From Mytilisepta virgata (Eukaryota; Mollusca; Bivalvia; Mytilida; Mytilidae): a stretch of 64,000 bases of DNA. The notes beneath the pieces were generated by a model, which worked only from the letters and a program-made list of their open reading frames with translations, had not been told where the DNA came from and did no database searches. The stretch covers positions 57,044,230 through 57,108,229 of the forward strand of contig CM051516.1 in NCBI GenBank assembly GCA_028015205.1, given 5' to 3'. Shown here piece by piece: positions 25,392 through 61,458 of this stretch. Positions within the stretch are counted from its first letter, which is position 1, and the number at the start of each line of letters is the position of its first letter. The translations under genes and the position numbers were made by a program.

Positions 25392-26365
25392 AACCAGAGG
25401 CTCCCAGGAGCCTGTATAGCTCACCTGATATTTACATTTATAATGTTTATTGCTAAATTTCAATCCATTCACTAATTTTCAAGAAAAATCCGTTTGTATG
25501 TAATTCCCATAGGGTCCCATGTTAAACTAAGTCTTCCACTGACGGCCATCATGGATGAAAGATCGGCACCAAAGTAACAATACTTGGTCAGAACATCATA
25601 AGGAACATTCTTGCCATGTGTGGTTTCAATCCATTCAGCAGTTCTCTAGAAGAAGATTTTTGTATGTATTTTCCAAAGGGTCCTATGCTAAACTAAGTCC
25701 CCTCTGGCGGACGTCTTGGATGATGAATCGGCATTAGAAGTAACAACACTTGATTAGTACCTCATAAGGATCATTCATGCCATGTTTTATTTCAATCCAT
25801 TCAGCGGTTCTCTAGAAGAAGATTTTTATAAGTATTTTCCATAGGGTTCTATGCTAAAAAAAAGTCCCCCCTGGCGGCCATCTTGGATGACGGGTCGGCA
25901 ACAAACTAATAACACTTGGTCAGCACCTCATAAGAAAGATTCTTGCTACGTTTGGTTTCAATTCCTTCAGTGGTTCTCTAGAAGAGGATTTTGTATGTAG
26001 TTCCCATAGGATCCTATGTTAAATTAAGTGCCCCGCTGTTGGCCATCCTGGATAACAGATCAGCACTAAAGTAACAACACTTAGTAAACACCCATAAGGA
26101 ACATTCATACCAAATTTGGTTTCACTCGATTAAGTGGTTCAATAGAGGAAGATTTTTGTAAGTAATTACCATAGGGTCCTTGTTAAACTAAGTCCCCCGT
26201 TGGCGGCCATTATGGATGACGGATCGGTTTCAAAGTAACAACACTTGGTCAGAACCTTGTAGGGAGCAGTTTAGCTATGTTTCGTGTCAATCCATTCAGT
26301 GGTTCTCCAGGAGAAGTTAAAAATGTGAAATGTTGACGGACGATGGACGACAGACGAAAAGTGAT
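25392..26365 (+). repeat. Interspersed element with ~165-bp core repeats
   Basis: The left end is AGAGGCTCCCAGGAGCCTGT followed by AGCTCACCTGA. Five to six copies of a ~165-bp unit follow (TTTCAATCCATTCAG.GGTT, CTCTAGAAGAAGATTTTTGT, CATAGGGTCCTATG, GGCGGCCATCTTGGATGA, GTAACAACACTTGGTCAG). The right end is GACGGACGATGGACGACAGA. It belongs to the same architectural family as 259-1652. Confidence 0.65.
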
Positions 26366-26665: not shown

Positions 26666-26879
26666 AGATAAATTAGGCTTTTTACTTGACGTTTGTCATT
26701 TAGTGAAGGGTAAACTTCATTAAATTAAAACACAAAATAGGAGTTGAAGCTATATGTTTAGCATTGATTAGCAGTTGACCATTAAAAGATACTTATCTTA
26801 ACAAAGTATGTTTCAAATTTTAACAAGATAAGTAGTATGTGGGGACAGTTCAGGTCGCATTTGAGGTGGTGCTGAGGTG

Positions 26880-27430
26880 GTGCTACCGGAAGTGACGTCA
26901 ACCGGAAATGACGTCACCGGAAGTGACGTGACCGGAACCGGAAGTCAGGTGACCGAAACCGGAAGTGATTTTTGCGCGCATGCGCAACCGGAAGTGGGTA
27001 GTTTTCCCGCCCTTTGTTGCCGGAAGTGACGCAAGTCATGTGGTAGGACCCGGATGTGTGTTCTGCGCATGCGTAGGCGGAACCGGAAGTACCCGGAAGT
27101 GATTTGCCCGCATGCGCAACCGGAAGTAGTGGATTTCCCCATGATTTGATTACGGAAGTGACGTCAGTCACGTGCCAGGACCCGGATGTGTCATCTGCGC
27201 ATGCGTGACCGGAACCGGAAGTACCCGGAAGTGGTTTGCGCGCATGCGCAACCGGAAGTGACGTGTTTTCCCGCCATTTCTTTACGGAAGTGACGCAAGT
27301 CACAGACCCGGACGTGCCGTCTGCGCATGTCTAGGAACCGGAAGTACCCAGAAGTCATGCGCAACCGGAAGTGATGGGTTTTCTCCATGATTTGTTTACG
27401 GAAGTGACGTAAGTCACGGACCAGGATGTG
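26880..27430 (+). promoter_or_regulatory. Dense ETS/CRE/NRF1/E2F motif array, left end
   Basis: About four units of 116-133 bp. By eye it contains 14 exact CCGGAAGT (ETS), three TGACGTCA (CRE/ATF), about five GCATGCG-type NRF1 cores (best TGCGCATGCG), two TTTTCCCGCC (E2F) and one CACGTG (E-box). The ETS and CRE sites fuse into the composite CCGGAAGTGACGTCA. These are established vertebrate binding consensuses; function here is inferred. Frames across it are by-products of the repeats. Confidence 0.7.
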
Positions 27431-28369
27431 CCATGCTTGACCAGGTTGAATTATCTCCATTTTCCTGCACTTCTCGGTCGTCTCTGGCTCTTTCGTCGGT
27501 CTCTAGGGTCTGATACTCTCACTGTTATGTCGAAGTCCGAGAGTATACGAAGTACACTATTGGATTATCTCCCCTTATCCCGCTCTTTTCATCTGCGGGT
27601 GATGTTTTCTGTGAGGACCAAAGGTAGGATTGGATTATCTCCCCTTATCCCGCTCTTTTCATTTGGGGGTATTTTCTGTGAGGACCAAAGGTAGGATTGG
27701 ATTATGTCCCCTTACCTCCAAGTGATGCTTGTCACCAATGGAGTGGTGTCCTTAGCAACCGCCTTAGCAACGGCGGTCCATTTCTATGATGCACTTCGTT
27801 TCTCTTCTCTTGCTCTATCCCGCTCCTCGCTGCTCTTCTCTTGCTCCGTGCTGCTCATCGCTACTCAGGCTTGTTGCTGTTCGTCATCGCTGCTCTTCTC
27901 TTGCTCTTTGCTGCTCAACGCCGCTCTGCACTGTACTCAGACCTGAAAGCACCCTAAAGACAATCGTTTACCCTAACACTAGTACCACTTCAAATTCATA
28001 AGGGATTGAGCCAGATTGAATAATCTCCCTTTTCCCGCTCTTCTCGGTCGTCTGGATCTTTGATTGAATTATCTCCCCTTATCCCGCTCTTTTCATCTGT
28101 GAGTGATGTTTTCTGTGAGGACTAGGATTGGATTATGTCCCCTTACCTCAAGTTGATGCTTGTCACCGCTCAATGGAGGGGAGTCCTTAGCAACGGCGGT
28201 CTATTTCATTGCTCTATGCTTCGCTTCTCTTCGCTTGCTCTTCGCTGCTCCATGCTGCTCATCGCTAATAATGACTATATTCACCTGCTGATTTAAGATT
28301 CTTGGGGTTACTTGTCGGTGTTTTCGCTGCTGCTTCCGCTCCTGCTGCTTGTTGGTGTTCGTCTATGCT
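27431..28369 (+). other. Left-arm spacer with duplicated blocks
   Basis: Contains three copies of a block with GGATTATCTCCCCTTATCCC and GTGAGGACCAAAGGTAGGA. RFX-like half sites CCTTAGCAAC occur twice in tandem at about 27751-27770. Scattered degenerate copies of the CTCTTGCTCTTTGCTGCTC minisatellite motif also occur. No supported gene. Confidence 0.5.
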
Positions 28370-30775
28370 GCTCTTATCTTGTTCATCGCTGTTTTTCTCG
28401 TGCTCTTTGCTGCTCATCGCTGTTTTTCTCTTGTTCTTTGTTGCTCATCACTGTTTTTCTCTTGCTCTTTACTGCTCATCACTGTTTTTCTCTTGTTCTT
28501 TACGGCTCATCACTGTTTTTCTCTTGCTCGTTACTACTTATCGCTGTTTTTCTCTTGGTTTTTGCAGCTCGTCGCTGTTTTTCTCTTGGTTTTTGTAGCT
28601 CGTGGCTGTTTTTCTCGTGCTCTTTGCTGCTCGTCGCTGTTTTTCTCTTGTTCTTTGTTGCTCATCACTGTTTTTCTCTTGCTATTTACTGCTCATCACT
28701 GTTTTTCTCTTGTTCTTTACTGGTCGTCACTGTTTTTCTCGTGCTGTTTACTGCTCATCGCTGGCTTTTCTCTCGCTCTTTGTTGATCATCACTGTTTTT
28801 CTCGTACTCTTTGCTGCTCATCGCTGTTTTTCTCTTGTTCTTTGCTGCTCATCGCTGTTTTTCTCTTGTTTTTTACTGCTCATCACTGTTTTTCTCTTGT
28901 TCTTTACTGCTCATCACTGTTTTTCTCTCGTTCTTTACTGCTCATCGCTGTTTTTCTCTTGCTCTTTACTGCTTATGGCTGTTTTTCTCTCGCTCTTTGT
29001 TGATCATCACTGTTTTTCTCGTACTCTTTGCTGCTCATCGCTGTTTTTCTCTTGCTCGTTACTGCTTATCGCTGTTTTTCTCTTGGTTTTTGTAGCTCGT
29101 CACTGTTTTTCTCGTGCTCTTTGCTGCTCGTCGCTGTTTTTCTCTTGTTCTTTGCTGCTCATCGCTGTTTTTCTCTTGTTCTTTGTTGCTCATCACTGTT
29201 TTTCTCTTGTTCTTTACTGCTCGTCGCTGTTTTTCTCTTGCTCTTTACTGCTTATGGCTGTTTTTCTCTCGCTCTTTGTTGATCATCACTGTTTTTCTCG
29301 TACTCTTTGCTGCTCATCGCTGTTTTTCTCTTGTTCTTTGCTGCTCATCGCTGTTTTTCTCTTGTTCTTTACTGCTCATCACTGTTTTTCTCTTGTTCTT
29401 TACTGCTCGTCGCTGTTTTTCTCTCGTTCTTTACTGCTCATCGCTGTTTTTCTCTTGCTCTTTACTGCTTATGGCTGTTTTTCTCTCGCTCTTTGTTAAT
29501 CATCACTGTTTTTCTCGTACTCTTTGCTGCTCATCACTGTTTTTCTCTTGCTCTTTACTGCTCATCACTGTTTTTCTCTTGTTCTTTACGTCTCATCGCT
29601 GTTTTTCTCTCGCTCGTTACTGCTCATCGCTGTTTTTCTCTCGTTCTTTACTGCTTATCGCTGGTTTTCTCTCGTTCTTTACTGCTTATGGCTGTTTTTC
29701 TCTTGCTCTTTACTGCTTATGGCTGTTTTTCTCTTGTTCTTTGCTGCTCATCGCTGTTTTTCTCGTACTCTTTGCTGCTCATCGCTGTTTTTCTCTTGTT
29801 CTTTGCTGCTCGTCGCTGTTTTTCTCTTGTTCTTTGCTGCTCATCGCTGTTTTTCTCTGGTTCTTTGTTGCTCATCACTGTTTTTCTCTTGTTCTTTACT
29901 GCTCGTCGCTGTTTTTCTCTCGTTCTTTACTGCTCATCGCTGTTTTTCTCTTTCTCTTTACTGCTTATGGCTGTTTTTCTCTCGCTCTTTGTTGATCATC
30001 ACTGTTTTTCTCGTACTCTTTGCTGCTCATCGCTGTTTTTCTCTTGTTCTTTGCTGCTCATCGCTGTTTTTCTCTTGTTCTTTACTGCTCATCACTGTTT
30101 TTCTCTTGTTCTTTACTGCTCGTCGCTGTTTTTCTCTTGTTCTTTACTGCTCGTCGCTGTTTTTCTCTCGTTCTTTACTGCTTATGGCTGTTTTTCTCTC
30201 GCTCTTTGTTGATCATCACTGTTTTTCTCGTACTCTTTGCTGCTCATCGCTGTTTTTCTCTTGTTCTTTGTTGCTCATCACTGTTTTTCTCTTGCTCTTT
30301 ACTGCTCATCACTGTTTTTCTCTTGTTCTTTACTGCTCATCAATGTTTTTCTCTTGTTCTTTACTGGTCATCGCTGTTTTTCTCTCGTTCTTTACTGCTC
30401 ATCGCTGTTTTTCTCTTGTTCTTTACGGCTCATCACTGTTTTTCTCTTGCTCGTTACTACTTATCAATGTTTTTCTCTTGGTTTTTGCAGCTCGTCGCTG
30501 TTTTTCTCTTGGTTTTTGTAGCTCGTGGCTGTTTTTCTCGTGCTCTTTGCTGCTCGTCGCTGTTTTTCTCTTGTTCTTTACGGCTCATCACTGTTTTTCT
30601 CTTGCTCGTTACTACTTATCAATGTTTTTCTCTTGGTTTTTGCAGCTCGTCGCTGTTTTTCTCTTGGTTTTTGTAGCTCGTGGCTGTTTTTCTCGTGCTC
30701 TTTGCTGCTCGTCGCTGTTTTTCTCTTGTTCTTTGTTGCTCATCACTGTTTTTCTCTTGTCCTTTGTTGTTCATC
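28370..30775 (+). repeat. 31-bp minisatellite, left arm (~78 units)
   Basis: The unit is close to GCTCATCGCTGTTTTTCTCT followed by TGTTCTTTACT. Because 31 is not a multiple of 3, translation gives a 31-residue hydrophobic repeat in each forward frame, and long frames arise only because the unit lacks stop codons. Frames end wherever the TTGTTGATCATC variant occurs. It lies convergent to the PC4-like gene. Degenerate outliers extend to about 31130. Confidence 0.9.
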
Positions 30776-31299
30776 GCTACTCCTTACCTTACTCGCGTGC
30801 TTATTTCGTTTTTTGGGGCTACTTGTCTCTGTTTTCGCTGCCACTACTGCTCCTGCTGCTTTTTGCTGTTCGTTATCGCTGCTCTTCTCTTGCTCATCGC
30901 TGTTTTTTCTCTTGCTCATCGCTGATCCTTTCTTGTTCTTTGCTGCTCATCCCTACTCAGGGCCTTACTCGTGTGCTCATTTCGCTCCTGCTGCTTGTTG
31001 CTGTTCGTCATCGCTGTTCGTCATCTCTGCTCTTCTCTTGCTCATCACTGCTCTTCTCTTGCTCTTTGCTGTTCATCGCTACACATGACCTTACTGGCGT
31101 GCTCATTTCAGTTTTTGGTGCTATTTGTCACTTTTAATCGCTGCTGCTGCTACTGCTGAAGGAATGTAGTTTACTGTTGATGATCGAAAGGCCACTCGGT
31201 ACTCATGTTGTCGGTTTGAGTGCTAGATCAAGACTGATCGTGGTGATTGTATACTGGGATATTTATCGACGACCAACACAAATGAAACAGTTTCATATT

Positions 31300-31545
31300 T
31301 TATTTTACAAAATCTACATCAGTCAATGTTTTAAGTTCTGGTTCTTTCTCTTCAAACAAAGGTATGATCTTCTTCAGTTCTTTCCATTCGAAGGTGTCCA
31401 AGCCGATTCCTCTCTTTGTTGGACGATAGGTCCAGTCTCCCCGGGGTATAAAGTGCTTTCTTATCCAAATAGTGGGGTATGGGGATTTGACGGTGACGAA
31501 TACATTGTCCCCAATGTGATATCTCCAGTCGACTAGTTCTTTATC
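31300..31545 (-). CDS. Second PC4-like domain, left arm (no start codon)
   Basis: Continues in the same frame after the TAG that ends the first PC4-like domain, 81 residues to TAA. It has the PC4 core pattern: a strand-rich first half, then PTKRGIGLDTFEWKELKKII. There is no ATG near its beginning, so it would need stop readthrough, an alternative transcript or ribosome re-entry. AATAAA overlaps the stop. Identical in layout to 37686-37931. Confidence 0.5.
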   Translation of the reverse strand, partial: DKELVDWRYHIGDNVFVTVKSPYPTIWIRKHFIPRGDWTYRPTKRGIGLDTFEWKELKKIIPLFEEKEPELKTLTDVDFVK

Positions 31546-31815
31546 CTATACTCTACCGATCAAATCATCCAGAACATCAGTAGTCTCGCATAAAGCTTTC
31601 CATTGTATCAAAGATAAGCTCACTCCGGTCTTGGTGGGCACCGTTTCACTTTCCCAAAATCTGAGATCTACTCTTTTACTGCCATTCCATTCTGTCAGCT
31701 CTGCATACGTTCCTCCACCAAGTAGTACTTTCAAAGGAATATCGGAAGCTGTCATGGCGTCTTGGACGATATCGCTCTCGGTCTGGTCTTTGGTTTTCTT
31801 TTCTTTACGAGACAT
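31546..31815 (-). CDS. PC4-like ssDNA-binding protein, left arm
   Basis: 89 aa. An acidic/lysine-rich N terminus (MSRKEKKTKDQTESD) is followed from about residue 35 by a PC4-type domain: RVDLRFWESETVPTKTGVSL then SLIQWKAL. PC4/Sub1 domains bind single-stranded DNA and act in transcription and genome maintenance. Five CCAAT boxes and a TATA box precede it. Inverted copy of 37416-37685. Confidence 0.6.
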   Translation of the reverse strand: MSRKEKKTKDQTESDIVQDAMTASDIPLKVLLGGGTYAELTEWNGSKRVDLRFWESETVPTKTGVSLSLIQWKALCETTDVLDDLIGRV

Positions 31816-31990
31816 GTCGGCTGACTGATTCTTCTTCTTGCTGGTCTATATATATATCTATTTGTAAAGATGGACTGGATTGGTTCTTATATTATGAAAC
31901 GTGAAACATGATTGGCTATCTTTCAGACATCGTGATTGGTTAACTTCTCCCATTCCGATTGGTCGAAAATCTGGTATTTTCATTGGTCAA
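31816..31990 (-). promoter_or_regulatory. CCAAT x5 plus TATA promoter, left arm
   Basis: Mirror of 37241-37415. ATTGG on the plus strand occurs at 31982-31986 and four further positions toward the gene, then a TATATATATAAATA-type box about 30 bp before the start codon of the PC4-like gene. Confidence 0.65.
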
Positions 31991-32170
31991 TTCCAACCGT
32001 TTCGATAGATCAACACGATGGTACACTGTCCAAATATGCGGCGCCCAATCCGGAAACTGCTCACAATAGGTACGAGTAAACGCCGACAATACGACCAGTC
32101 TTCCTTGGTTCACCACACCGTCTTCGAACATGGCAGAGACGATTGTCTCGTATACTCGTAGGGGGTCCAT
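31940..32170 (-). CDS. Short ORF with Bcl-2 BH1-like motif, left arm
   Basis: 76 aa from the ATG at 32170. MFEDGVVNQGRLVVLSAF resembles the BH1 signature of Bcl-2 family proteins (DG..NWGR.V), with Gln where the usual Trp stands. Downstream BH2 is not clear and the protein is much shorter than full Bcl-2 proteins (usually over 150 aa), so it may be a fragment, one exon, or a coincidence. TATAAAAGG lies about 40 bp upstream. Its 3' part overlaps the CCAAT boxes of the next gene. Copy of 37061-37291. Confidence 0.4.
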   Translation of the reverse strand: MDPLRVYETIVSAMFEDGVVNQGRLVVLSAFTRTYCEQFPDWAPHIWTVYHRVDLSKRLELTNENTRFSTNRNGRS

Positions 32171-32202
32171 CGTACGAATGACTTCTCTGACTATCTTCAC
32201 TT

Positions 32203-32211
32203 CCTTTTATA
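32203..32211 (-). promoter_or_regulatory. TATA box of the BH1-like ORF, left arm
   Basis: TATAAAAGG on the minus strand, ending 33 bp before the ATG at 32170, implying a very short leader. Confidence 0.55.
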
Positions 32212-32439
32212 CATTTATGACATGAGACTACTCTGCATTGACAAACTTGTAACTGTCTACATATATACATGTATATATAGTGTTGCCAGAAGATCCCGAT
32301 ACCGGGGTTTTGTATCTGAGGCACTGGCAGTCCACCCGGACAGAGGAAAATACCGACAATCGTGTTCAGGATGAACGAGATTACATCCGCCACCTTTCCT
32401 GATATGGTTCGCCACACATTCAATCTACAAAATACGACC

Positions 32440-32640
32440 TTCAAGATCAACGTGTCGTTTGGATTTATACTGAGAAACGGAGAGACCGGAGAACTAAGAT
32501 ACTTCCATTCCAGGACGGGGACGAATGTTCTCTGTCTCGATGATGTTAGATGGACATCAAAGATGGCTGCACCCATTCTCTTGCTTTTTGCTGCTCATCG
32601 CTGTTTTTCTCTTGCTCTGCTAATGATGACCTTACCTCAT
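32440..32640 (+). repeat. YY1-like repeat copy and minisatellite remnant, left arm
   Basis: Contains GGACGAATGTTCTCTGTCTC and GATGGACATCAAAGATGGCTGC-type sequence (AAGATGGCTGC resembles the YY1 site). It is a third, diverged copy of the unit repeated at 34178-34410. A few units of the CTCATCGCTGTTTTTCTC minisatellite follow. Confidence 0.55.
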
Positions 32641-32750
32641 TTCAGTTTTGGGGCAACTTGTCGCTGTTTTCGCCGCTGTTGCTAGTGGTGGTCGATTGTC
32701 GTTATTCAAAGATTGGATCTGTGCGAGAGCACCCTTAGATCCGGGTTATT

Positions 32751-32880
32751 TAAAAGTCCACTCTGCATTTATCCAGGCTTGTGACTGGCTATCATAAGAT
32801 AGGCTGCATTTATCCTGCTCAATTTTTTAAGGGCACTCTGCATTTGTCCAGGCTTGTGATAAACATATATAGGCTGCATT
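32751..32880 (+). repeat. ~65-bp direct repeat, left arm
   Basis: Two copies share CACTCTGCATTTATCCAGGC and TATAGGCTGCATT. Mirror of 36351-36480. Non-coding spacer between the acidic ORF and the BH1-like ORF. Confidence 0.55.
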
Positions 32881-33082
32881 ACCCTCCTTCCCTTTTTTTG
32901 TTATATTTTTTTCTGTTTTTCTTTGTAATATGTTCCAATTCCTCCGTCACATAGAGTCATTGCTGTCTCCAGCTGGAGGTGGGTCGTAGTCGTTCAATAC
33001 ACGGTTAAGCAGATATTTTCGTTTTTCTACGGCCTAATCACATGATTCTTTTGATTCGTAGTCTTCCTATTCTCTCCAGCGT

Positions 33083-33514
33083 TTAGCCGTTTTTCTTGAT
33101 CTCTCTATGTACGGGGTCTTTATTTTTGTCTTGATGCCAGGACACCAGTCCGAGGTAATGCTTTCGTATTTCGTCTCTGTATGAGTCAAACATGTCTCTA
33201 TATGCTGCCAAGCGTGCCTTGTCTTCTTCCATTCCGGCTTCCACTACTTCGTTTACTGTCTGTGAGTATTCCGATTGATGTACTTGAAATGTTATGTTCA
33301 AAACGACTTCCCATAGGGACTGTTCGCAAAGCTCTTCGGAGTCTTCGTTGGATCCATGGTCACTTCTTTGTTCCGATTCATCGTTATCGGCTTCTGTGGT
33401 GGTGTCTGAAGCTGAATCACTATAGTCTGTTGAATCCTCTTCAATACCATGTGCATTCTTTTTGTGTCGCACTAGGTTAAAGTTTTGCTTGGATTGGTAT
33501 CCACAGGTATACAT
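33083..33514 (-). CDS. Acidic ORF with partial C2H2-like N terminus, left arm
   Basis: 143 aa. It begins immediately after the upstream stop (TAAATG). The first residues, CGYQSKQNFNLVRHKKNAHG, look like the end of a C2H2 zinc finger, but the first cysteine position is occupied by the initiator Met. A long acidic Ser/Asp/Glu stretch (about residues 25-62) and a charged helical C terminus follow. Function unknown. Copy of 35717-36148. Confidence 0.5.
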   Translation of the reverse strand: MYTCGYQSKQNFNLVRHKKNAHGIEEDSTDYSDSASDTTTEADNDESEQRSDHGSNEDSEELCEQSLWEVVLNITFQVHQSEYSQTVNEVVEAGMEEDKARLAAYRDMFDSYRDEIRKHYLGLVSWHQDKNKDPVHREIKKNG

Positions 33515-33973
33515 TTAAGACGTCTTTATTTCCTGGTAGTCGATAGCAGAATGAGTTCCGGTCGTCCTGCAAGTGCTTATATTAGATACAGGTTCCTCAG
33601 CGGCTTGTTGATTCATACACAAGCGTTTGGCAAAGTATTCGTTTCGACATTGTTGCAGTTCAGATTTCACTTTTCTGATGAGGTCTCTTTTAAGTCTTTT
33701 CCACTCGTTGTCAATCCTTCTACATCCCTTGCAGATATTCATGTTTTTGTAGAAGTCCGCAAAGCTCTTGTTCGTTTGACACTTTTTACATTTCTTGTTT
33801 GGATCCACTTTGTTGGGTCCTCCACTTGTGTTATCCAGCCGTTTGGTTCTCTTCACTTTGGTTAGAAGTAATTTCCTTTTCCTTTGTGGTTTTGCTTTGG
33901 TGTTAGAAAGATCCACAGGTATTAAATATCTAGCAGGAACCACTAAATCAACGAGAGGCGTTTTCGATGCCAT
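33515..33973 (-). CDS. Basic protein with CxxC-CxxC zinc-binding motif, left arm
   Basis: 152 aa. Lys/Arg-rich stretch at about residues 26-45, then CKKC and CKGC (Cys62, 65, 81, 84) separated by 15 residues, followed by a basic helix. This treble-clef-like pattern occurs beside HNH-type nuclease domains and in DNA-binding proteins; no HNH catalytic residues are seen. Copy of 35258-35716. Confidence 0.55.
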   Translation of the reverse strand: MASKTPLVDLVVPARYLIPVDLSNTKAKPQRKRKLLLTKVKRTKRLDNTSGGPNKVDPNKKCKKCQTNKSFADFYKNMNICKGCRRIDNEWKRLKRDLIRKVKSELQQCRNEYFAKRLCMNQQAAEEPVSNISTCRTTGTHSAIDYQEIKTS

Positions 33974-34177
33974 TGATACGTGTGTGTTGTTTGACGGTCT
34001 TCAAACAACTGACGAAATTAAACAAAACCTCTGATTATATTTTCGTTAAAAGCTTTTCATTGGTGTCATAGAGACGAAGATTACCCCACACAGTTCGCTG
34101 TTCGTTGTTGCTATTGCTGCTGAGGAGGTGAAGGTGGGATTCTCACTGTTTCGTTATAAGTCACCTCTTAGTCTCGT

Positions 34178-34410
34178 TGATGTTACGATGAACATCAAAG
34201 ATGGCTGCCTCCATGTAACGCGGACCTGAAAGAGAGCACCCTTATGAAATAGAAGTTTTAGAGTCTTTCCGGACGGGAACGAATGTTCCCAGTCTCGTTG
34301 ATGTTACGATGGACATCAAAGATGGCTGCGCCCAAGTAACGCGGACCTAAAAGGGAGCACCCTAATGAAACGAAAATTTCAGAGTATTTCCGGACGGAAA
34401 CGAACGTTTA
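34178..34410 (+). repeat. 118-bp direct repeats with YY1-like sites, left arm
   Basis: Two copies share GTCTCGTTGATGTTACGATG, ACATCAAAGATGGCTGC, GTAACGCGGACCT and GTTT/GTATTTCCGGACGG. AAGATGGCTGC matches the YY1 core AANATGGC. The arrangement is promoter-like upstream of the zinc-motif gene but its orientation relative to any start is unclear. Confidence 0.6.
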
Positions 34411-34421
34411 CGGATTTCAGT

Positions 34422-34540
34422 CCTAACCATAACCCTAACTCCAGACCTAACCCTAACCCTAACTCGAGTCCTAACCCCAACTCTAATCCTAACCCTAACC
34501 CTAACCCTAACCGTAGTCCTGTCTCTAACCCTTATCGTAG
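34422..34540 (+). repeat. CCCTAA telomere-type repeats, left arm
   Basis: Runs of CCTAACCCTAACCCTAACC interspersed with degenerate units (CCTAACCCCAACTCTAAT). The G-rich strand points outward from the centre of the palindrome. Mirror at 34691-34809. Confidence 0.8.
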
Positions 34541-34575
34541 GTCTGTCTCGTACTCCTACTCTAACAACTCATACC

Positions 34576-34655
34576 TCACGTCGTTGGATCACCTAAGCAA
34601 GCGTGACTGTTTGCCTCATGTTTGTCACGCTTGCACCAGTGAACCACCGGCGTGG
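34576..34655. other. Imperfect central hairpin of the palindrome
   Basis: Where the arms meet, pairing continues with isolated mismatches. The inner stem is CAAGCGTGAC with GTCACGCTTG around a loop of about 16 nt (TGTTTGCCTCATGTTT). A stem with unpaired bases resembles hairpin telomeres of some linear DNA genomes; this comparison is inference. Confidence 0.7.
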
Positions 34656-34690
34656 GGTATGAGTTGTTAGAGTAGGAGTACGAGACAGAC

Positions 34691-34809
34691 CTACGATAAG
34701 GGTTAGAGACAGGACTATGGTTAGGGTTAGGGTTAGGGTTAGGATTAGAGTTGGGGTTAGGACTCGAGTTAGGGTTAGGGTTAGGTCTGGAGTTAGGGTT
34801 ATGGTTAGG
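34691..34809 (-). repeat. TTAGGG telomere-type repeats, right arm
   Basis: Inverted copy of 34422-34540, reading GGTTAGGGTTAGGGTTAGG on the plus strand with degenerate units between. Confidence 0.8.
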
Positions 34810-34820
34810 ACTGAAATCCG

Positions 34821-35053
34821 TAAACGTTCGTTTCCGTCCGGAAATACTCTGAAATTTTCGTTTCATTAGGGTGCTCCCTTTTAGGTCCGCGTTACTTGGG
34901 CGCAGCCATCTTTGATGTCCATCGTAACATCAACGAGACTGGGAACATTCGTTCCCGTCCGGAAAGACTCTAAAACTTCTATTTCATAAGGGTGCTCTCT
35001 TTCAGGTCCGCGTTACATGGAGGCAGCCATCTTTGATGTTCATCGTAACATCA
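34821..35053 (-). repeat. 118-bp direct repeats with YY1-like sites, right arm
   Basis: Mirror of 34178-34410. It lies about 200 bp upstream of the zinc-motif gene at 35258, where GCAGCCATCTTTGATGT is the plus-strand reading of the YY1-like site. Confidence 0.6.
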
Positions 35054-35257
35054 ACGAGACTAAGAGGTGACTTATAACGAAACAGTGAGAATCCCACCTT
35101 CACCTCCTCAGCAGCAATAGCAACAACGAACAGCGAACTGTGTGGGGTAATCTTCGTCTCTATGACACCAATGAAAAGCTTTTAACGAAAATATAATCAG
35201 AGGTTTTGTTTAATTTCGTCAGTTGTTTGAAGACCGTCAAACAACACACACGTATCA

Positions 35258-35716
35258 ATGGCATCGAAAACGCCTCTCGTTGATTTAGTGGTTCCTGCTA
35301 GATATTTAATACCTGTGGATCTTTCTAACACCAAAGCAAAACCACAAAGGAAAAGGAAATTACTTCTAACCAAAGTGAAGAGAACCAAACGGCTGGATAA
35401 CACAAGTGGAGGACCCAACAAAGTGGATCCAAACAAGAAATGTAAAAAGTGTCAAACGAACAAGAGCTTTGCGGACTTCTACAAAAACATGAATATCTGC
35501 AAGGGATGTAGAAGGATTGACAACGAGTGGAAAAGACTTAAAAGAGACCTCATCAGAAAAGTGAAATCTGAACTGCAACAATGTCGAAACGAATACTTTG
35601 CCAAACGCTTGTGTATGAATCAACAAGCCGCTGAGGAACCTGTATCTAATATAAGCACTTGCAGGACGACCGGAACTCATTCTGCTATCGACTACCAGGA
35701 AATAAAGACGTCTTAA
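35258..35716 (+). CDS. Basic protein with CxxC-CxxC zinc-binding motif, right arm
   Basis: 152 aa from the first ATG of the frame; the same protein as 33515-33973. After a basic stretch, CKKC at 62-65 and CKGC at 81-84 frame a segment with FADFYKN, followed by a Lys/Arg-rich helix. Nucleic-acid binding is likely from this composition, but no family can be named. It ends TAA directly followed by ATG of the next ORF in the same frame, suggesting coupled translation or a split longer protein. Confidence 0.55.
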   Translation: MASKTPLVDLVVPARYLIPVDLSNTKAKPQRKRKLLLTKVKRTKRLDNTSGGPNKVDPNKKCKKCQTNKSFADFYKNMNICKGCRRIDNEWKRLKRDLIRKVKSELQQCRNEYFAKRLCMNQQAAEEPVSNISTCRTTGTHSAIDYQEIKTS

Positions 35717-36148
35717 ATGTATACCTGTGGATACCAATCCAAGCAAAACTTTAACCTAGTGCGACACAAAAAGAATGCACATGGTATTGAAGAGGATTCA
35801 ACAGACTATAGTGATTCAGCTTCAGACACCACCACAGAAGCCGATAACGATGAATCGGAACAAAGAAGTGACCATGGATCCAACGAAGACTCCGAAGAGC
35901 TTTGCGAACAGTCCCTATGGGAAGTCGTTTTGAACATAACATTTCAAGTACATCAATCGGAATACTCACAGACAGTAAACGAAGTAGTGGAAGCCGGAAT
36001 GGAAGAAGACAAGGCACGCTTGGCAGCATATAGAGACATGTTTGACTCATACAGAGACGAAATACGAAAGCATTACCTCGGACTGGTGTCCTGGCATCAA
36101 GACAAAAATAAAGACCCCGTACATAGAGAGATCAAGAAAAACGGCTAA
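35717..36148 (+). CDS. Acidic ORF with partial C2H2-like N terminus, right arm
   Basis: 143 aa, same product as 33083-33514. The ATG abuts the TAA of the preceding ORF. The finger-like start (FNLVRHKKNAHG) precedes an acidic linker rich in Asp, Glu and Ser and a C-terminal region with WEVVLNITFQVHQSEY. The function is unknown. Both arms keep the frame open, which could reflect constraint or only recent duplication. Confidence 0.5.
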   Translation: MYTCGYQSKQNFNLVRHKKNAHGIEEDSTDYSDSASDTTTEADNDESEQRSDHGSNEDSEELCEQSLWEVVLNITFQVHQSEYSQTVNEVVEAGMEEDKARLAAYRDMFDSYRDEIRKHYLGLVSWHQDKNKDPVHREIKKNG

Positions 36149-36350
36149 ACGCTGGAGAGAATAGGAAGACTACGAATCAAAAGAATCATGTGATTAGGCC
36201 GTAGAAAAACGAAAATATCTGCTTAACCGTGTATTGAACGACTACGACCCACCTCCAGCTGGAGACAGCAATGACTCTATGTGACGGAGGAATTGGAACA
36301 TATTACAAAGAAAAACAGAAAAAAATATAACAAAAAAAGGGAAGGAGGGT

Positions 36351-36480
36351 AATGCAGCCTATATATGTTTATCACAAGCCTGGACAAATGCAGAGTGCCC
36401 TTAAAAAATTGAGCAGGATAAATGCAGCCTATCTTATGATAGCCAGTCACAAGCCTGGATAAATGCAGAGTGGACTTTTA
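36351..36480 (-). repeat. ~65-bp direct repeat, right arm
   Basis: Two copies of AATGCAGCCTAT...CACAAGCCTGGA..AAATGCAGAGTG. Mirror of 32751-32880. Confidence 0.55.
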
Positions 36481-36590
36481 AATAACCCGGATCTAAGGGT
36501 GCTCTCGCACAGATCCAATCTTTGAATAACGACAATCGACCACCACTAGCAACAGCGGCGAAAACAGCGACAAGTTGCCCCAAAACTGAA

Positions 36591-36791
36591 ATGAGGTAAG
36601 GTCATCATTAGCAGAGCAAGAGAAAAACAGCGATGAGCAGCAAAAAGCAAGAGAATGGGTGCAGCCATCTTTGATGTCCATCTAACATCATCGAGACAGA
36701 GAACATTCGTCCCCGTCCTGGAATGGAAGTATCTTAGTTCTCCGGTCTCTCCGTTTCTCAGTATAAATCCAAACGACACGTTGATCTTGAA
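36591..36791 (-). repeat. YY1-like repeat copy and minisatellite remnant, right arm
   Basis: Mirror of 32440-32640: remnant GAGAAAAACAGCGATGAGCA units, then the GGGTGCAGCCATCTTTGATG site. A long frame here (36655-37170) has no recognisable domain and overlaps the next gene, so I do not call it. Confidence 0.5.
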
Positions 36792-37019
36792 GGTCGTATT
36801 TTGTAGATTGAATGTGTGGCGAACCATATCAGGAAAGGTGGCGGATGTAATCTCGTTCATCCTGAACACGATTGTCGGTATTTTCCTCTGTCCGGGTGGA
36901 CTGCCAGTGCCTCAGATACAAAACCCCGGTATCGGGATCTTCTGGCAACACTATATATACATGTATATATGTAAACAGTTACAAGTTTGTCAATGCAGAG
37001 TAGTCTCATGTCATAAATG

Positions 37020-37028
37020 TATAAAAGG
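37020..37028 (+). promoter_or_regulatory. TATA box of the BH1-like ORF, right arm
   Basis: TATAAAAGG 32 bp before the ATG at 37061. It is a canonical TATA sequence, implying a leader of about 10-15 nt. Confidence 0.55.
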
Positions 37029-37060
37029 AAGTGAAGATAGTCAGAGAAGTCATTCGTACG

Positions 37061-37291
37061 ATGGACCCCCTACGAGTATACGAGACAATCGTCTCTGCCA
37101 TGTTCGAAGACGGTGTGGTGAACCAAGGAAGACTGGTCGTATTGTCGGCGTTTACTCGTACCTATTGTGAGCAGTTTCCGGATTGGGCGCCGCATATTTG
37201 GACAGTGTACCATCGTGTTGATCTATCGAAACGGTTGGAATTGACCAATGAAAATACCAGATTTTCGACCAATCGGAATGGGAGAAGTTAA
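37061..37291 (+). CDS. Short ORF with Bcl-2 BH1-like motif, right arm
   Basis: 76 aa, same product as 31940-32170. A BH1-like stretch (EDGVVNQGRLVVL) is preceded by a helix-like segment ending ETIVSAMF, the order seen around BH1 in Bcl-2 proteins, which control mitochondrial apoptosis. The invariant Trp is replaced by Gln and the rest of the fold is missing or spliced in from elsewhere. A frame extension upstream starts only from GTG at 37031, so I chose the ATG behind the TATA box. Confidence 0.4.
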   Translation: MDPLRVYETIVSAMFEDGVVNQGRLVVLSAFTRTYCEQFPDWAPHIWTVYHRVDLSKRLELTNENTRFSTNRNGRS

Positions 37292-37415
37292 CCAATCACG
37301 ATGTCTGAAAGATAGCCAATCATGTTTCACGTTTCATAATATAAGAACCAATCCAGTCCATCTTTACAAATATATATATAAATAGACCAGCAAGAAGAAG
37401 AATCAGTCAGCCGAC
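37241..37415 (+). promoter_or_regulatory. CCAAT x5 plus TATA promoter, right arm
   Basis: CCAAT pentamers start at 37245, 37269, 37292, 37316 and 37348, spacings 24, 23, 24 and 32 bp. A TATATATATAAATA box lies at about 37371-37384, and the ATG of the PC4-like gene is at 37416. This is the layout of a strong NF-Y-type promoter. The first boxes lie inside the 3' end of the BH1-like ORF. Confidence 0.7.
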
Positions 37416-37685
37416 ATGTCTCGTAAAGAAAAGAAAACCAAAGACCAGACCGAGAGCGATATCGTCCAAGACGCCATGACAGCTTCCGATATTCCTTTGA
37501 AAGTACTACTTGGTGGAGGAACGTATGCAGAGCTGACAGAATGGAATGGCAGTAAAAGAGTAGATCTCAGATTTTGGGAAAGTGAAACGGTGCCCACCAA
37601 GACCGGAGTGAGCTTATCTTTGATACAATGGAAAGCTTTATGCGAGACTACTGATGTTCTGGATGATTTGATCGGTAGAGTATAG
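37416..37685 (+). CDS. PC4-like ssDNA-binding protein, right arm
   Basis: 89 aa, same product as 31546-31815. The PC4 hallmark is the segment TKTGVSLSLIQWKAL following a beta-rich stretch with WNGSKRVDLRFW. PC4-type proteins bind melted DNA as dimers; in DNA viruses and mobile elements such proteins would suit transcription or replication. The open frame continues beyond TAG (37683-37685) into a second PC4-like domain. Confidence 0.6.
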   Translation: MSRKEKKTKDQTESDIVQDAMTASDIPLKVLLGGGTYAELTEWNGSKRVDLRFWESETVPTKTGVSLSLIQWKALCETTDVLDDLIGRV

Positions 37686-37931
37686 GATAAAGAACTAGTC
37701 GACTGGAGATATCACATTGGGGACAATGTATTCGTCACCGTCAAATCCCCATACCCCACTATTTGGATAAGAAAGCACTTTATACCCCGGGGAGACTGGA
37801 CCTATCGTCCAACAAAGAGAGGAATCGGCTTGGACACCTTCGAATGGAAAGAACTGAAGAAGATCATACCTTTGTTTGAAGAGAAAGAACCAGAACTTAA
37901 AACATTGACTGATGTAGATTTTGTAAAATAA
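37686..37931 (+). CDS. Second PC4-like domain, right arm (no start codon)
   Basis: 81 residues in the same frame as the first domain, separated only by TAG. Key segments are DNVFVTVKSPYPTIWIRKHF and TKRGIGLDTFEWKEL. The stop is TAA at 37929-37931, overlapped by an AATAAA signal (37927-37932), so both domains probably share one transcript. Same in the other arm (31300-31545). Confidence 0.5.
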   Translation, partial: DKELVDWRYHIGDNVFVTVKSPYPTIWIRKHFIPRGDWTYRPTKRGIGLDTFEWKELKKIIPLFEEKEPELKTLTDVDFVK

Positions 37932-38455
37932 AATATGAAACTGTTTCATTTGTGTTGGTCGTCGATAAATATCCCAGTATACAATCACCACGATCAGTCT
38001 TGATCTAGCACTCAAACCGACAACATGAGTACCGAGTGGCCTTTCGATCATCAACAGTAAACTACATTCCTTCAGCAGTAGCAGCAGCAGCGATTAAAAG
38101 TGACAAATAGCACCAAAAACTGAAATGAGCACGCCAGTAAGGTCATGTGTAGCGATGAACAGCAAAGAGCAAGAGAAGAGCAGTGATGAGCAAGAGAAGA
38201 GCAGAGATGACGAACAGCGATGACGAACAGCAACAAGCAGCAGGAGCGAAATGAGCACACGAGTAAGGCCCTGAGTAGGGATGAGCAGCAAAGAACAAGA
38301 AAGGATCAGCGATGAGCAAGAGAAAAAACAGCGATGAGCAAGAGAAGAGCAGCGATAACGAACAGCAAAAAGCAGCAGGAGCAGTAGTGGCAGCGAAAAC
38401 AGAGACAAGTAGCCCCAAAAAACGAAATAAGCACGCGAGTAAGGTAAGGAGTAGC

Positions 38456-40706
38456 GATGAACAACAAAGGACAAGAGAAAAACAGTGATGAGCAACAAAG
38501 AACAAGAGAAAAACAGCGACGAGCAGCAAAGAGCACGAGAAAAACAGCCACGAGCTACAAAAACCAAGAGAAAAACAGCGACGAGCTGCAAAAACCAAGA
38601 GAAAAACATTGATAAGTAGTAACGAGCAAGAGAAAAACAGTGATGAGCCGTAAAGAACAAGAGAAAAACAGCGATGAGCAGTAAAGAACGAGAGAAAAAC
38701 AGCGATGACCAGTAAAGAACAAGAGAAAAACATTGATGAGCAGTAAAGAACAAGAGAAAAACAGTGATGAGCAGTAAAGAGCAAGAGAAAAACAGTGATG
38801 AGCAACAAAGAACAAGAGAAAAACAGCGATGAGCAGCAAAGAGTACGAGAAAAACAGTGATGATCAACAAAGAGCGAGAGAAAAACAGCCATAAGCAGTA
38901 AAGAACGAGAGAAAAACAGCGACGAGCAGTAAAGAACAAGAGAAAAACAGCGACGAGCAGTAAAGAACAAGAGAAAAACAGTGATGAGCAGTAAAGAACA
39001 AGAGAAAAACAGCGATGAGCAGCAAAGAACAAGAGAAAAACAGCGATGAGCAGCAAAGAGTACGAGAAAAACAGTGATGATCAACAAAGAGCGAGAGAAA
39101 AACAGCCATAAGCAGTAAAGAGAAAGAGAAAAACAGCGATGAGCAGTAAAGAACGAGAGAAAAACAGCGACGAGCAGTAAAGAACAAGAGAAAAACAGTG
39201 ATGAGCAACAAAGAACAAGAGAAAAACAGCGATGAGCAGCAAAGAACAAGAGAAAAACAGCGACGAGCAGCAAAGAACAAGAGAAAAACAGCGATGAGCA
39301 GCAAAGAGTACGAGAAAAACAGCGATGAGCAGCAAAGAACAAGAGAAAAACAGCCATAAGCAGTAAAGAGCAAGAGAAAAACAGCCATAAGCAGTAAAGA
39401 ACGAGAGAAAAACAGCGATAAGCAGTAAAGAACGAGAGAAAAACAGCGATGAGCAGTAACGAGCGAGAGAAAAACAGCGATGAGACGTAAAGAACAAGAG
39501 AAAAACAGTGATGAGCAGTAAAGAGCAAGAGAAAAACAGTGATGAGCAGCAAAGAGTACGAGAAAAACAGTGATGATCAACAAAGAGCGAAAGAAAAACA
39601 GCCATAAGCAGTAAAGAGCAAGAGAAAAACAGCGATGAGCAGTAAAGAACGAGAGAAAAACAGCGACGAGCAGTAAAGAACAAGAGAAAAACAGTGATGA
39701 GCAGTAAAGAACAAGAGAAAAACAGCGATGAGCAGCAAAGAACAAGAGAAAAACAGCGATGAGCAGCAAAGAGTACGAGAAAAACAGTGATGATCAACAA
39801 AGAGCGAGAGAAAAACAGCCATAAGCAGTAAAGAGCAAGAGAAAAACAGCGACGAGCAGTAAAGAACAAGAGAAAAACAGTGATGAGCAACAAAGAACAA
39901 GAGAAAAACAGCGATGAGCAGCAAAGAACAAGAGAAAAACAGCGACGAGCAGCAAAGAGCACGAGAAAAACAGTGACGAGGTACAAAAACCAAGAGAAAA
40001 ACAGCGATGAGCAGTAACGAGCAAGAGAAAAACAGCGATGAGCAGCAAAGAGTACGAGAAAAACAGTGATGATCAACAAAGAGCGAGAGAAAAACAGCCA
40101 TAAGCAGTAAAGAGCAAGAGAAAAACAGCGATGAGCAGTAAAGAACGAGAGAAAAACAGTGATGAGCAGTAAAGAACAAGAGAAAAACAGTGATGAGCAG
40201 TAAAAAACAAGAGAAAAACAGCGATGAGCAGCAAAGAACAAGAGAAAAACAGCGATGAGCAGCAAAGAGTACGAGAAAAACAGTGATGATCAACAAAGAG
40301 CGAGAGAAAAGCCAGCGATGAGCAGTAAACAGCACGAGAAAAACAGTGACGACCAGTAAAGAACAAGAGAAAAACAGTGATGAGCAGTAAATAGCAAGAG
40401 AAAAACAGTGATGAGCAACAAAGAACAAGAGAAAAACAGCGACGAGCAGCAAAGAGCACGAGAAAAACAGCCACGAGCTACAAAAACCAAGAGAAAAACA
40501 GCGACGAGCTGCAAAAACCAAGAGAAAAACAGCGATAAGTAGTAACGAGCAAGAGAAAAACAGTGATGAGCCGTAAAGAACAAGAGAAAAACAGTGATGA
40601 GCAGTAAAGAGCAAGAGAAAAACAGTGATGAGCAACAAAGAACAAGAGAAAAACAGCGATGAGCAGCAAAGAGCACGAGAAAAACAGCGATGAACAAGAT
40701 AAGAGC
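38456..40706 (-). repeat. 31-bp minisatellite, right arm (~73 units)
   Basis: Inverted copy of the left-arm array, five units shorter. The plus-strand unit is close to AGTAAAGAACAAGAGAAAAA followed by CAGCGATGAGC. Long minus-strand frames here are repeat artefacts. Confidence 0.9.
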
Positions 40707-41644
40707 AGCATAGACGAACACCAACAAGCAGCAGGAGCGGAAGCAGCAGCGAAAACACCGACAAGTAACCCCAAGAATCTTAAATCAGCAAGTGAATATA
40801 GTCATTATTAGCGATGAGCAGCATGGAGCAGCGAAGAGCAAGCGAAGAGAAGCGAAGCATAGAGCAATGAAATAGACCGCCGTTGCTAAGGACTCCCCTC
40901 CATTGAGCGGTGACAAGCATCAACTTGAGGTAAGGGGACATAATCCAATCCTAGTCCTCACAGAAAACATCACTCACAGATGAAAAGAGCGGGATAAGGG
41001 GAGATAATTCAATCAAAGATCCAGACGACCGAGAAGAGCGGGAAAAGGGAGATAATTCAATCTGGCTCAATCCCTTATGAATTTGAAGTGGTACTAGTGT
41101 TAGGGTAAACGATTGTCTTTAGGGTGCTTTCAGGTCTGAGTACAGTGCAGAGCAGCGTTGAGCAGCAAAGAGCAAGAGAAGAGCAGCGATGACGAACAGC
41201 AACAAGCCTGAGTAGCGATGAGCAGCACGGAGCAAGAGAAGAGCAGCGAGGAGCGGGATAGAGCAAGAGAAGAGAAACGAAGTGCATCATAGAAATGGAC
41301 CGCCGTTGCTAAGGCGGTTGCTAAGGACACCACTCCATTGGTGACAAGCATCACTTGGAGGTAAGGGGACATAATCCAATCCTACCTTTGGTCCTCACAG
41401 AAAATACCCCCAAATGAAAAGAGCGGGATAAGGGGAGATAATCCAATCCTACCTTTGGTCCTCACAGAAAACATCACCCGCAGATGAAAAGAGCGGGATA
41501 AGGGGAGATAATCCTATAGTGTACTTCGTATACTCTCGGACTTCGACATAACAGTGAGAGTATCAGACCCTAGAGACCGACGAAAGAGCCAGAGACGACC
41601 GAGAAGTGCAGGAAAATGGAGATAATTCAACCTGGTCAAGCATG
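40707..41644 (-). other. Right-arm spacer with duplicated blocks
   Basis: Mirror of 27431-28369, with GGGATAAGGGGAGATAATCC blocks and GTTGCTAAGG RFX-like half sites. No supported gene. Confidence 0.5.
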
Positions 41645-42195
41645 GCACATCCTGGTCCGTGACTTACGTCACTTCCGTAAACAAATCATGGAGAAAACCC
41701 ATCACTTCCGGTTGCGCATGACTTCTGGGTACTTCCGGTTCCTAGACATGCGCAGACGGCACGTCCGGGTCTGTGACTTGCGTCACTTCCTAAAGAAATG
41801 GCGGGAAAACACGTCACTTCCGGTTGCGCATGCGCGCAAACCACTTCCGGGTACTTCCGGTTCCGGTCACGCATGCGCAGACGACACATCCGGGTCCTGG
41901 CACGTGACTGACGTCACTTCCGTAATCAAATCATGGGGAAATCCACTACTTCCGGTTGCGCATGCGGGCAAATCACTTCCGGGTACTTCCGGTTCCGCCT
42001 ACGCATGCGCAGAACACACATCCGGGTTCTACCACGTGACTTGCGTCACTTCCGGCAACAAAGGGCGGGAAAACTACCCACTCCCGGTTGCGCATGCGCA
42101 CAAAAATCACTTCCGGTTCCGGTCACCTGACTTCCGGTTCCGGTCACGTCACTTCCGGTGACGTCATTTCCGGTTGACGTCACTTCCGGTAGCAC
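41645..42195 (-). promoter_or_regulatory. Dense ETS/CRE/NRF1/E2F motif array, right end
   Basis: Mirror of 26880-27430: ACTTCCGG (ETS), TGACGTCA (CRE), TGCGCATGCG (NRF1), GGCGGGAAAA (E2F) and CACGTG. A frame of 181 codons runs through it only because of the repeat composition and is broken in the other arm by a single-base indel. Confidence 0.7.
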
Positions 42196-42629
42196 CACCT
42201 CAGCACCACCTCAAATGCGACCTGAACTGTCCCCACATACTACTAAGATATATTGAGCACATCGAAGTCTACACGATTTTTAATTTACCCAAAAATTGTT
42301 AATTTTGTGATTTTTCGTGCACATTTGATTTTTTTACGGACAAGGCCACATAACTCCAGAACAACATCTGACTTTAATACGGTAACAGTATAGACATGAT
42401 AGAGGAGCCTAAGGAAATTTCAGTCTAGTGAGTCTTTTTAGCAACTTCAAACTTTGATCACAGATACAAAGAACTTGGCAATATTTTGTAACCATTTTTC
42501 ACCATTTTAGTAAGGATGATTTAAGTTTTTTAGAATAATTATGAATATTTACCCTGGAAACAATAAGAAAAATGTGTTCATGTACTTATTAATAAAGTTT
42601 CTTGTTTTAAGTAGAAAGGCTAGATAAAT

Positions 42630-59029: not shown

Positions 59030-60335
59030 TAGCCATGTTGATGGTATTTCGTCTACCGAAAAATAGCTTGACAAAAAAATCTGTACCGAAACCAATCAAA
59101 GAAAAGGTTTTCGAATTACTCAAATTATATAAGAATTATATGATCATTTACATCATGATGCCATAAAATGTAAATAGATATCCAGCATTTATCTGCCTAA
59201 GGGGTATATACAATACATACATGTAGTTTGCATGTTGCGAAACAGCTCATACGACAACATAATACAATTATATCTATATTATTATAACTACATTTAGCAC
59301 ATACTTACAACTTCTCGTCCAATCAAATATCTAGAATTTGCCTTCTAATTTTCATAGTACATACTTTTTCCGTGTACTAAGTAACTACGCATGAATGACC
59401 ACAAGGGTAAGATTTCATTGTATCGTAATCAAGATATTAAAACAAAAATTGCCACTGGCTATTTTGAAATAAAATGCTGTGTTCCAAATTAGATTAAATA
59501 GTTCGTAATATAGTTTTCACATTGATTTTTAAATATCCTACTATTAAAATCTTTGGCTCTAAAAAAATGTTTTTGACGATTGCAAGTTTCTTTCATTTAA
59601 ATAAAGAGTAACAAATATGGTTCTTTATATCTTGATTATATCTTGATTAGAGTACAACGTCATCTTAACCCCCCCCCCCCCCCCGGATCCGCCACTGCAT
59701 TCTATCTATCTATATGTTTCAGATTTATAATAGCTTTAGTTTTACTGTGAAATTGAAAAATGTTTTCAAGACATGTAAAGCTTCCACTGCAATCTAATTA
59801 TTGCCTGCTTTTGGTCAATTTATTTTGTCATCTAACCATGTAAACTAAAAGAAGTACATGTATAATAAAACACCGCTTTATACCGATAAACATACTTACA
59901 CCAGCAGCTACCATCTTTTCATTCTGGAGTCAAGGGCCTTTTGAAATCACATATTTTACTATAACAAAATGAAGAGTTATTTTCTCCCGAGGAAATTCAA
60001 GGATTTCGGATAGTTCTATTTTGGATTTTGTTTTGATAATTCGCAACTGTAAATATTATTATCTGTACTACGTATTGAGTTAAAGTAATCTTGATTTTGT
60101 GTATCCTGCCACCCATTTTCAAAATGCACATTTAGACAAAGAACTGTTTAATATTCATTGTGACCAGGCCTGAACATCCCCTCTGGCCATTGACAGTACT
60201 GATAAGATTGAAAACAGTTCACAACACGAAAGATTAAATTGGACTTTGTACCCGTAGTAAATACAGCTGATTCATAGTAAACACATAGTAAATATAACCC
60301 TGTGACCTTTTGTCCCAACTAATCAGAAGCCAGCT
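59030..60335. other. Non-coding; possible LINE 5' region near the end
   Basis: No gene recognised. A poly-C run of about 17 lies near 59668-59686. The last few hundred bases may be the 5'UTR of the LINE that follows; its start cannot be placed. Confidence 0.35.
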
Positions 60336-61355: not shown

Positions 61356-61458
61356 GAGAGCCGTGGGGGTGAACAGCTAATTGAAAATATTATATGTAAC
61401 AACGACTATGTAAATAATGAGAAAAAAAAATGTGTTAAGTTAAATATAAATTCTGTTA

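Follow-up and report, generated by a model that had tools for sequence, protein, structure and literature searches.

A palindromic element in the window

The stretch of DNA analysed here, referred to as the window, comprises 64,000 nucleotides of the Mytilisepta virgata genome (assembly GCA_028015205.1; 1.034 Gb in 109 contigs) at C9:57044230-57108229, and it contains a mobile element at positions 26831-42244. An earlier note, made from the sequence of the window, had described a 15.4-kb near-perfect palindrome inserted as a single unit, and the insertion is as described. The element is a 15,414-bp palindrome in the assembly with the ends AGTAGTAT..ATACTACT, bordered on both sides by AAGATA in a duplication of exactly 6 bp (26825-26830 on the left and 42245-42250 on the right, both on the + strand). 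The 500-bp flanks are unlike each other, their sole common match being 12 bp long (E 0.03). The element inserts as one unit with these ends and a 6-bp duplication.

The term near-perfect needs some qualification. A global alignment of the left arm (26831-34607, - strand, 7,777 bp) with the reverse complement of the right arm (34624-42244, + strand, 7,621 bp) contains 28 substitutions, eight of which are clustered in the 21 bp adjoining the centre, and gives an identity of 99.6% over aligned positions; a 1-bp indel and a 155-bp indel, the latter equal to five units of 31 bp within a 31-bp tandem array, lie outside that figure.

A family of palindromes across the genome

The 18-base end motif AGTAGTATRTGGGNACAG has 1,047 exact matches in the genome, 500 on the + strand and 547 on the - strand, against none for the reversed control. 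The first 601 bp of the element gave at least 42 matches (the best 40 of 3,306 candidates scored), many of which form inverted pairs 9-16 kb apart. Nine elements were fetched from such pairs (C14, C3, C5, C7, C10a, C10b, C16, C22, and C27). In eight the 6-bp duplication is perfect, with a different sequence in every case, and C5 has lost its left end, so that nine of ten elements are perfectly duplicated when the window element is included. The first six listed apart from C16, C22, and C27 are palindromic over the same centre as the window element; beside the centre, one arm of C10b is short by ~1 kb and one arm of C7 by ~0.2 kb. The segment run of the window element, including the PC4 region described below, is present in seven of the nine.

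Pairing of ends was counted among 100 listed end motifs of the 1,047, all on C1-C3 and exact matches only. Forty-two of these form 21 "+ then -" neighbours less than 20 kb apart, 12 of which span 14.0-15.6 kb, while no "- then +" neighbours and two same-strand pairs were found. Both ends were read in 20 further pairs: 17 have a perfect 6-bp duplication, two match at 5/6 positions, and one (p1) has mirrored flanks. The duplication is thus perfect in 26 of the 30 elements with ends examined, the window element included; the 25 duplication sequences tabulated are all different, and that of C3, read later, is a 26th. The 600-bp midpoints of five of the 20 pairs were also examined, and four are palindromic with the central core. 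A palindrome around the same imperfect hairpin is therefore present in 11 of 15 elements whose centre was examined, again counting the window. Because these ends and this centre recur at other genomic places next to different 6-bp duplications, the palindrome is not a chance arrangement. The elements form a genome-wide family with common ends, most examined copies of which have the same palindrome centre. The earlier note had proposed looking for copies with different 6-bp duplications, and these were found; nor are the copies all single arms lacking AG..CT ends. Its description of the element as an inverted dimer holds too; the arms fill the element, and the same architecture recurs in most copies examined at the centre.

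Some pairs depart from this pattern. Seven shorter pairs (p14-p20; L079-L092), 3.5-8.2 kb in length, carry the same end motif, with perfect duplications in five of the seven and ends that are mostly diverged; they are possibly deletion derivatives or a related non-palindromic set. The flanks of p1 (C1:120317-135340; L053, L054) extend the mirror image, either as a larger inverted duplication or as an assembly artefact.

The central hairpin

The arms meet at an imperfect hairpin with an internal bubble (34561-34670, + strand) that is conserved in the family. In the window the innermost 11 bp are fully paired around a 16-nt loop (34608-34623, + strand). Among 12 aligned elements the innermost 38 nt are nearly invariant: the stem is altered once, in C7, and the loop varies at two positions. 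The bubble beside them is unpaired in six of eight alignment rows and paired in C27 and p2. The outer stem differs among elements yet pairs. Covariation was assessed in eight rows standing for nine of the 12 elements, C5 and C14 being the same and placed in one common row; C3, which equals the window, and C7 and C10b, in which one side of the outer stem is missing, were omitted. Both sides have changed at 9 of 47 pairs (19 cells), a count equalled by 0 of 500 shuffles and compared with 0-2 in slid versions of the alignment, and the count of further pair types was equalled by 9 of 500 shuffles; kinship among rows alone can beat shuffles without any structure, and these counts are to be read with that in mind. 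Overall, 88% of stem cells are paired, against 28-42% in the slid versions.

Relationship between the two arms

The arms were compared over the gene region (34700-38090) in six elements with both arms. All 12 arms are closest to their own partner. Elements differ from one another with the arms agreeing in each at 175 of 2,462 gap-free columns, compared with 32 within-element differences, 29 of which are private, each occurring in a single arm of a single element. In a FastTree tree built from 13 arms, partners come out as sisters in five of the six pairs. Because every arm is nearest to its partner and nearly all differences are private, the arms of the six tested elements were evidently identical or nearly so at insertion and then decayed separately. 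Divergence between the arms varies among elements, with 16 differences in 7,790 aligned positions in C14 and 82 in 6,991 in C7, for example.

C14 is a mirrored recombinant. Its PC4 region is 19% different from that of the window element, reaching 36% in one 200-column stretch, while from 35100 to ~37060 the two differ by just 0-1.5% per 200 columns; between the arms of C14 itself, no difference occurs over the 3,384 aligned positions of the gene region. For such a recombinant to become mirrored, one arm must template, or correct, the other.

Coding content and arm anatomy

Seven ORFs (open reading frames) of the element were scanned with Pfam profiles, array-coded and other overlapping ORFs being left out. 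The clearest match is to PC4, in agreement with the PC4-like gene of the earlier note. The first domain (37416-37685, + strand) matches at E 1.8e-9 and the second (37686-37931, + strand) at E 4e-4, with 20.3 bits against a cut-off of 25; the mirror copy in the left arm (31300-31815, - strand, placed by computation from the arm alignment) is identical. The two-domain gene is open over 171-172 codons in five of the nine fetched elements. Two PC4 types ~19% apart (L009, L016, and L017 versus the other copies) occur within elements that are ~1% different nearby, which implies recombination between elements. Between the C14/C16 type and the common type, synonymous divergence (dS) is ~0.6 and nonsynonymous divergence (dN) ~0.15, giving a dN/dS of 0.23-0.25. 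The gene was therefore under purifying selection at some time, either in the palindrome family or in a source from which it was recombined. All 29 candidates in a search with the first PC4 domain match at E up to 0.001; they are JGI or ENA proteins with no functional name, and in one of them (P0020) both domains align in one frame. Judging from these 29 public relatives, the gene is distributed beyond the M. virgata genome. The longest contig of four of the relatives (P0001-P0029) exceeds 100 kb.

Three further frames were considered. An 88-codon frame (37025-37291, + strand) has weak Bcl-2/BH1 similarity, and the BH1-like gene of the earlier note stays below threshold: the Pfam Bcl-2 match has E 9e-4 and 20.2 bits against a cut-off of 31.4, and the best solved-structure match is Bcl-2-related protein A1 at E 0.13. 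A Cys-rich, zinc-ribbon-like ORF of 152 amino acids (35258-35716, + strand, in the right arm; 33515-33973, - strand, in the left) faintly matches a PHROG endonuclease VII family at E 0.003, with no protein relative among six candidates and no solved-structure match at E up to 1. It was also compared with a Polinton frame bearing a faint Endonuclease_7 match, and no kinship was found. A C2H2-like ORF of 143 amino acids (35717-36148, + strand, in the right arm; 33083-33514, - strand, in the left), which is 191 amino acids long in one other copy, has a dN/dS of 0.34-0.35 over its three divergent pairs.

None of the seven ORFs scanned was recognised as a retroviral-like integrase (rve), a PolB, a Rep, a resolvase, a capsid protein, or any other viral product, and no PF03175 match was listed at the window in the PolB search described below (91 of 461 candidates scored). 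A scan of viral contigs and of bacterial and archaeal genome contigs gave no confirmed relative of the element. The label non-autonomous given by the earlier note holds; its suggestion of a possible viral derivation found no capsid or other viral gene in these ORFs to support it.

From its outer end toward the centre, each arm consists of a CpG-rich array, minisatellites, a 31-bp array, the PC4 gene, the Bcl-2-like frame, the two small ORFs, telomere-like CTAACC/GGTTAG stretches, and the central hairpin. The left terminal array (26831-27450, + strand) contains 14 CCGGAAGT, 9 TGACGT, and 7 GCATGCGC, and the right one (41630-42244, - strand) 13, 9, and 7, respectively; these motifs are packed into ~0.6 kb at each end, and none is present in the arm interior. 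The ratio of observed to expected CpG is 1.16 in both arrays, 0.88 in the arm interior, and 0.62 in the flanks. All 13 CCGGAAGT of the right array are on the same strand. We take the three motifs to resemble ETS, CREB (cAMP response element-binding protein), and NRF1 promoter sites, respectively, and the arrays are possibly promoter arrays. The 31-bp array has 77.3 copies in the left arm (28383-30778, + strand) and 72.3 in the right (38453-40693, - strand). The telomere-like stretches near the centre raised the possibility of a telomere fusion, which was rejected because they point contrary to a fused chromosome end. An Rfam scan gave no match at gathering score, and a tRNA scan found none.

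Elsewhere in the window, a 166-bp tandem repeat at 25458-26316 stops ~500 bp short of the element's left end. An exon-like ORF at 16862-17293 matches LOH1CR12 (Pfam E 2.2e-14) and starts inside a 67-bp minisatellite. A possible remnant of a non-LTR (long terminal repeat) retrotransposon lies at 60306-62352, where a coiled-coil-like ORF precedes an ORF with a sub-threshold Exo_endo_phos match (Pfam E 5e-4).

Resident Polintons

AG..CT ends are the rule in the Polinton/Maverick family, and the earlier note had likened the ends and 6-bp duplications of the palindrome to those of Polintons. A PolB (PF03175) profile search of the genome gave at least 117 matches (91 of 461 candidates scored). Two related Polinton copies, on C9 and C11, are 13.2 kb long with inverted repeats of 134-135 bp, and both have 6-bp duplications (TATTAA and CGCAAA). 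Their end motif has 17 matches per strand, often paired ~13 kb apart. Genes for an rve integrase bearing a chromodomain, for an A32-like ATPase, and for a double-jelly-roll (capsid) protein were recognised in parts of the C9 copy, so that complete Polintons are present in the genome alongside the palindromes. The left ends of 13 further PolB loci start with AGTAGT in 11 cases, located at, or within ~10 bases of, the homology boundary, and with AGTAGTAT in five. The comparison with Polintons thus extends to those resident in the same genome, and the relatives with integrase and PolB that the earlier note had suggested seeking share the first 6-8 bases of the palindromes.

The palindrome is also of comparable size (15.4 kb versus 13.2 kb). 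It is unlike these Polintons in that no PolB or integrase was found in it, and in that its inverted repeats make up the whole element. As nothing in common was found beyond the first bases and the duplication length, we term the palindromes Polinton-type and non-autonomous rather than Polintons.

Discussion

We consider it probable (roughly 0.6), from the sequence patterns described above, that the element is a non-autonomous, Polinton-type inverted dimer that is copied through a single-strand hairpin, or snapback, and inserted by a Polinton-type integrase. Both the mode of copying and the helper are inferred. The element ends would be recognised by an integrase of Polinton type acting in trans, and a strand-displacing polymerase would copy the element. 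Protein-primed strand displacement releases single strands, as in adenovirus. The polymerase would probably be the protein-primed PolB that Polintons encode (PMC6431247). The displaced strand could then pair with itself as a 7.7-kb hairpin, with the element ends at its open side and the conserved central loop closing the other, and copying from the open end, which would carry the origin, round the loop would rebuild the double-stranded 15-kb palindrome. In each cycle one arm would template the other, or the arms would be mismatch-corrected against each other, with the imperfect loop being kept. The two-domain PC4-like protein, presumably a single-strand DNA binder, may coat the intermediate or help it to anneal. 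Copying of this kind would account for arms that are identical at insertion, for recombinants that are mirrored, for the conservation of an asymmetric loop, and for the lack of a unique middle.

Several observations weigh against this interpretation. The copying step rests on sequence pattern, and no intermediate has been seen. Of the 100 listed ends, 58 are without an adjacent partner within 20 kb, a count that considers exact matches only. When the terminal 300 bp of the two ends were compared in the 20 further pairs, identity was at least 99% in seven (one over 131 bp), 93-94% in five, 83-89% in four, and 71-79% in three, and one pair gave an 18-bp alignment; pairs with unlike ends may be old, chimeric, or non-palindromic relatives. 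The 12.8-kb pair p12 has no central core at its midpoint. C27 and C10a do not carry the PC4 region, and their arrays are different. The arm pair of the window is unresolved in the tree, next to its close relative C3. As to the genes, PC4 is broken in the window by an in-frame stop, comparisons within one PC4 type, which involve few changes, give a dN/dS that is 0.66-1.67 or undefined, and the 152-amino-acid ORF has a dN/dS of 0.89-1.26 over divergent pairs. Lastly, the sequence common to the palindromes and the sampled Polintons is no longer than the first ~8 bases, and neither five element proteins (E up to 0.01) nor one arm (E up to 0.001) matched the Polinton pieces L026-L052.

Among the alternatives, a foldback-type DNA transposon that moves by cut-and-paste, with recombination or repair during the move keeping its arms similar, fares best and is still unlikely. 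Foldback elements and Galileo have inverted repeats that are very long, variable in length, and internally repetitive, with tandem arrays inside them (PMC3573991), and derivatives with one arm shortened at its inner end occur here (C16, C22, and C27). These derivatives also count against copying through a hairpin, as does the similar trace to be expected from a foldback transposon if repair were strong while it transposed. According to the same source, Galileo repeats reach ~1.26 kb and its duplications are 7 bp long, in contrast to 7.7-kb arms and 6-bp duplications here, where the start of the ends and the duplication length fit the resident Polintons. The arms are also joined at a conserved 16-nt loop and flank no unique middle. 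Conservative cut-and-paste, moreover, would transmit arm differences, whereas the arms coalesce within each insertion.

In chromosomal palindromes one arm can convert the other, and gene conversion after insertion, as in large chromosomal palindromes, would make arm identity uninformative about copying. We regard this as improbable for the family. Three of the 32 within-element differences are common to other elements, as conversion or recombination would produce and contrary to simple decay of matched arms, but the other 29 are of the private kind expected of plain mutation after insertion, and the divergence of the arms is unequal among elements, as C14 and C7 illustrate.

Covalently closed hairpin telomeres are found in parvovirus or poxvirus-like DNA, and a 7.7-kb linear monomer with such a telomere might be the replicating form, the dimer being a replication junction integrated by a borrowed integrase. 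This differs from the favoured hairpin copying chiefly in which form is stored. The imperfect, nearly invariant central hairpin would suit it, and snapback genomes are a major category of adeno-associated virus (AAV) defective particles (PMC8235507). Pfam recognised neither a Rep nor a resolvase or capsid gene in the seven element ORFs, Rep not having been otherwise searched for, and we give this explanation little credence. An assembly artefact from hairpin or chimeric reads is highly improbable: one of the 20 sampled pairs (p1) has mirrored flanks, but different perfect 6-bp duplications with unlike flanks, private arm mutations, and a common conserved centre argue against it.

The palindromes can be placed beside other known systems. 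Defective AAV snapback genomes are likewise self-complementary DNA in a snapback configuration (PMC8235507); unlike the palindromes, which are a chromosomal family with target-site duplications and Polinton-type ends, they are parvovirus virion DNAs. IS3EU and GingerRoot share the 6-bp duplications, but IS3EU ends are TA..TA and those of GingerRoot mostly so (PMC10045372), unlike AG..CT. Ginger1 and Ginger2 differ in having TGTNR ends and 4-bp duplications (PMC2836005), and KolobokP was ruled out by its direct long repeats and 3-5-bp duplications (PMC9587614). PC4, Bcl, and palindromes go unmentioned in the accessible part of PMC11071296, and the bivalve transposon survey PMC10294476 names Mavericks, with the terms "foldback" and "palindrom" absent from its accessible text. 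No palindromic Polinton-type family of this architecture was found in the literature, a search of open-licence papers that leaves its absence unproven.

Long near-perfect palindromes are regarded as unstable, and this genome may hold at least 100 of them. With 21 two-ended and 12 full-length elements per 100 listed ends, a crude extrapolation to the 1,047 ends gives ~220 two-ended and ~125 full-length elements genome-wide. It is an even question whether these constitute what could be called snapback transposons, that is, chromosomal elements that are normally inherited as complete inverted dimers, are remade in each cycle via a giant self-paired hairpin whose loop is conserved, and rely on a borrowed Polinton integrase for insertion. 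Such an element would be a stable Polinton satellite resembling a defective snapback virus genome in its construction, and a presumed single-strand-binding protein is encoded in many copies. Transcribed palindromes could yield very long double-stranded RNA. If each element is remade as a hairpin, comparison of its arms would provide a built-in clock for every insertion. The family would then preserve a natural trace of how DNA is replicated when a single strand folds on itself, and the replication mode of Polintons would become testable from sequence.

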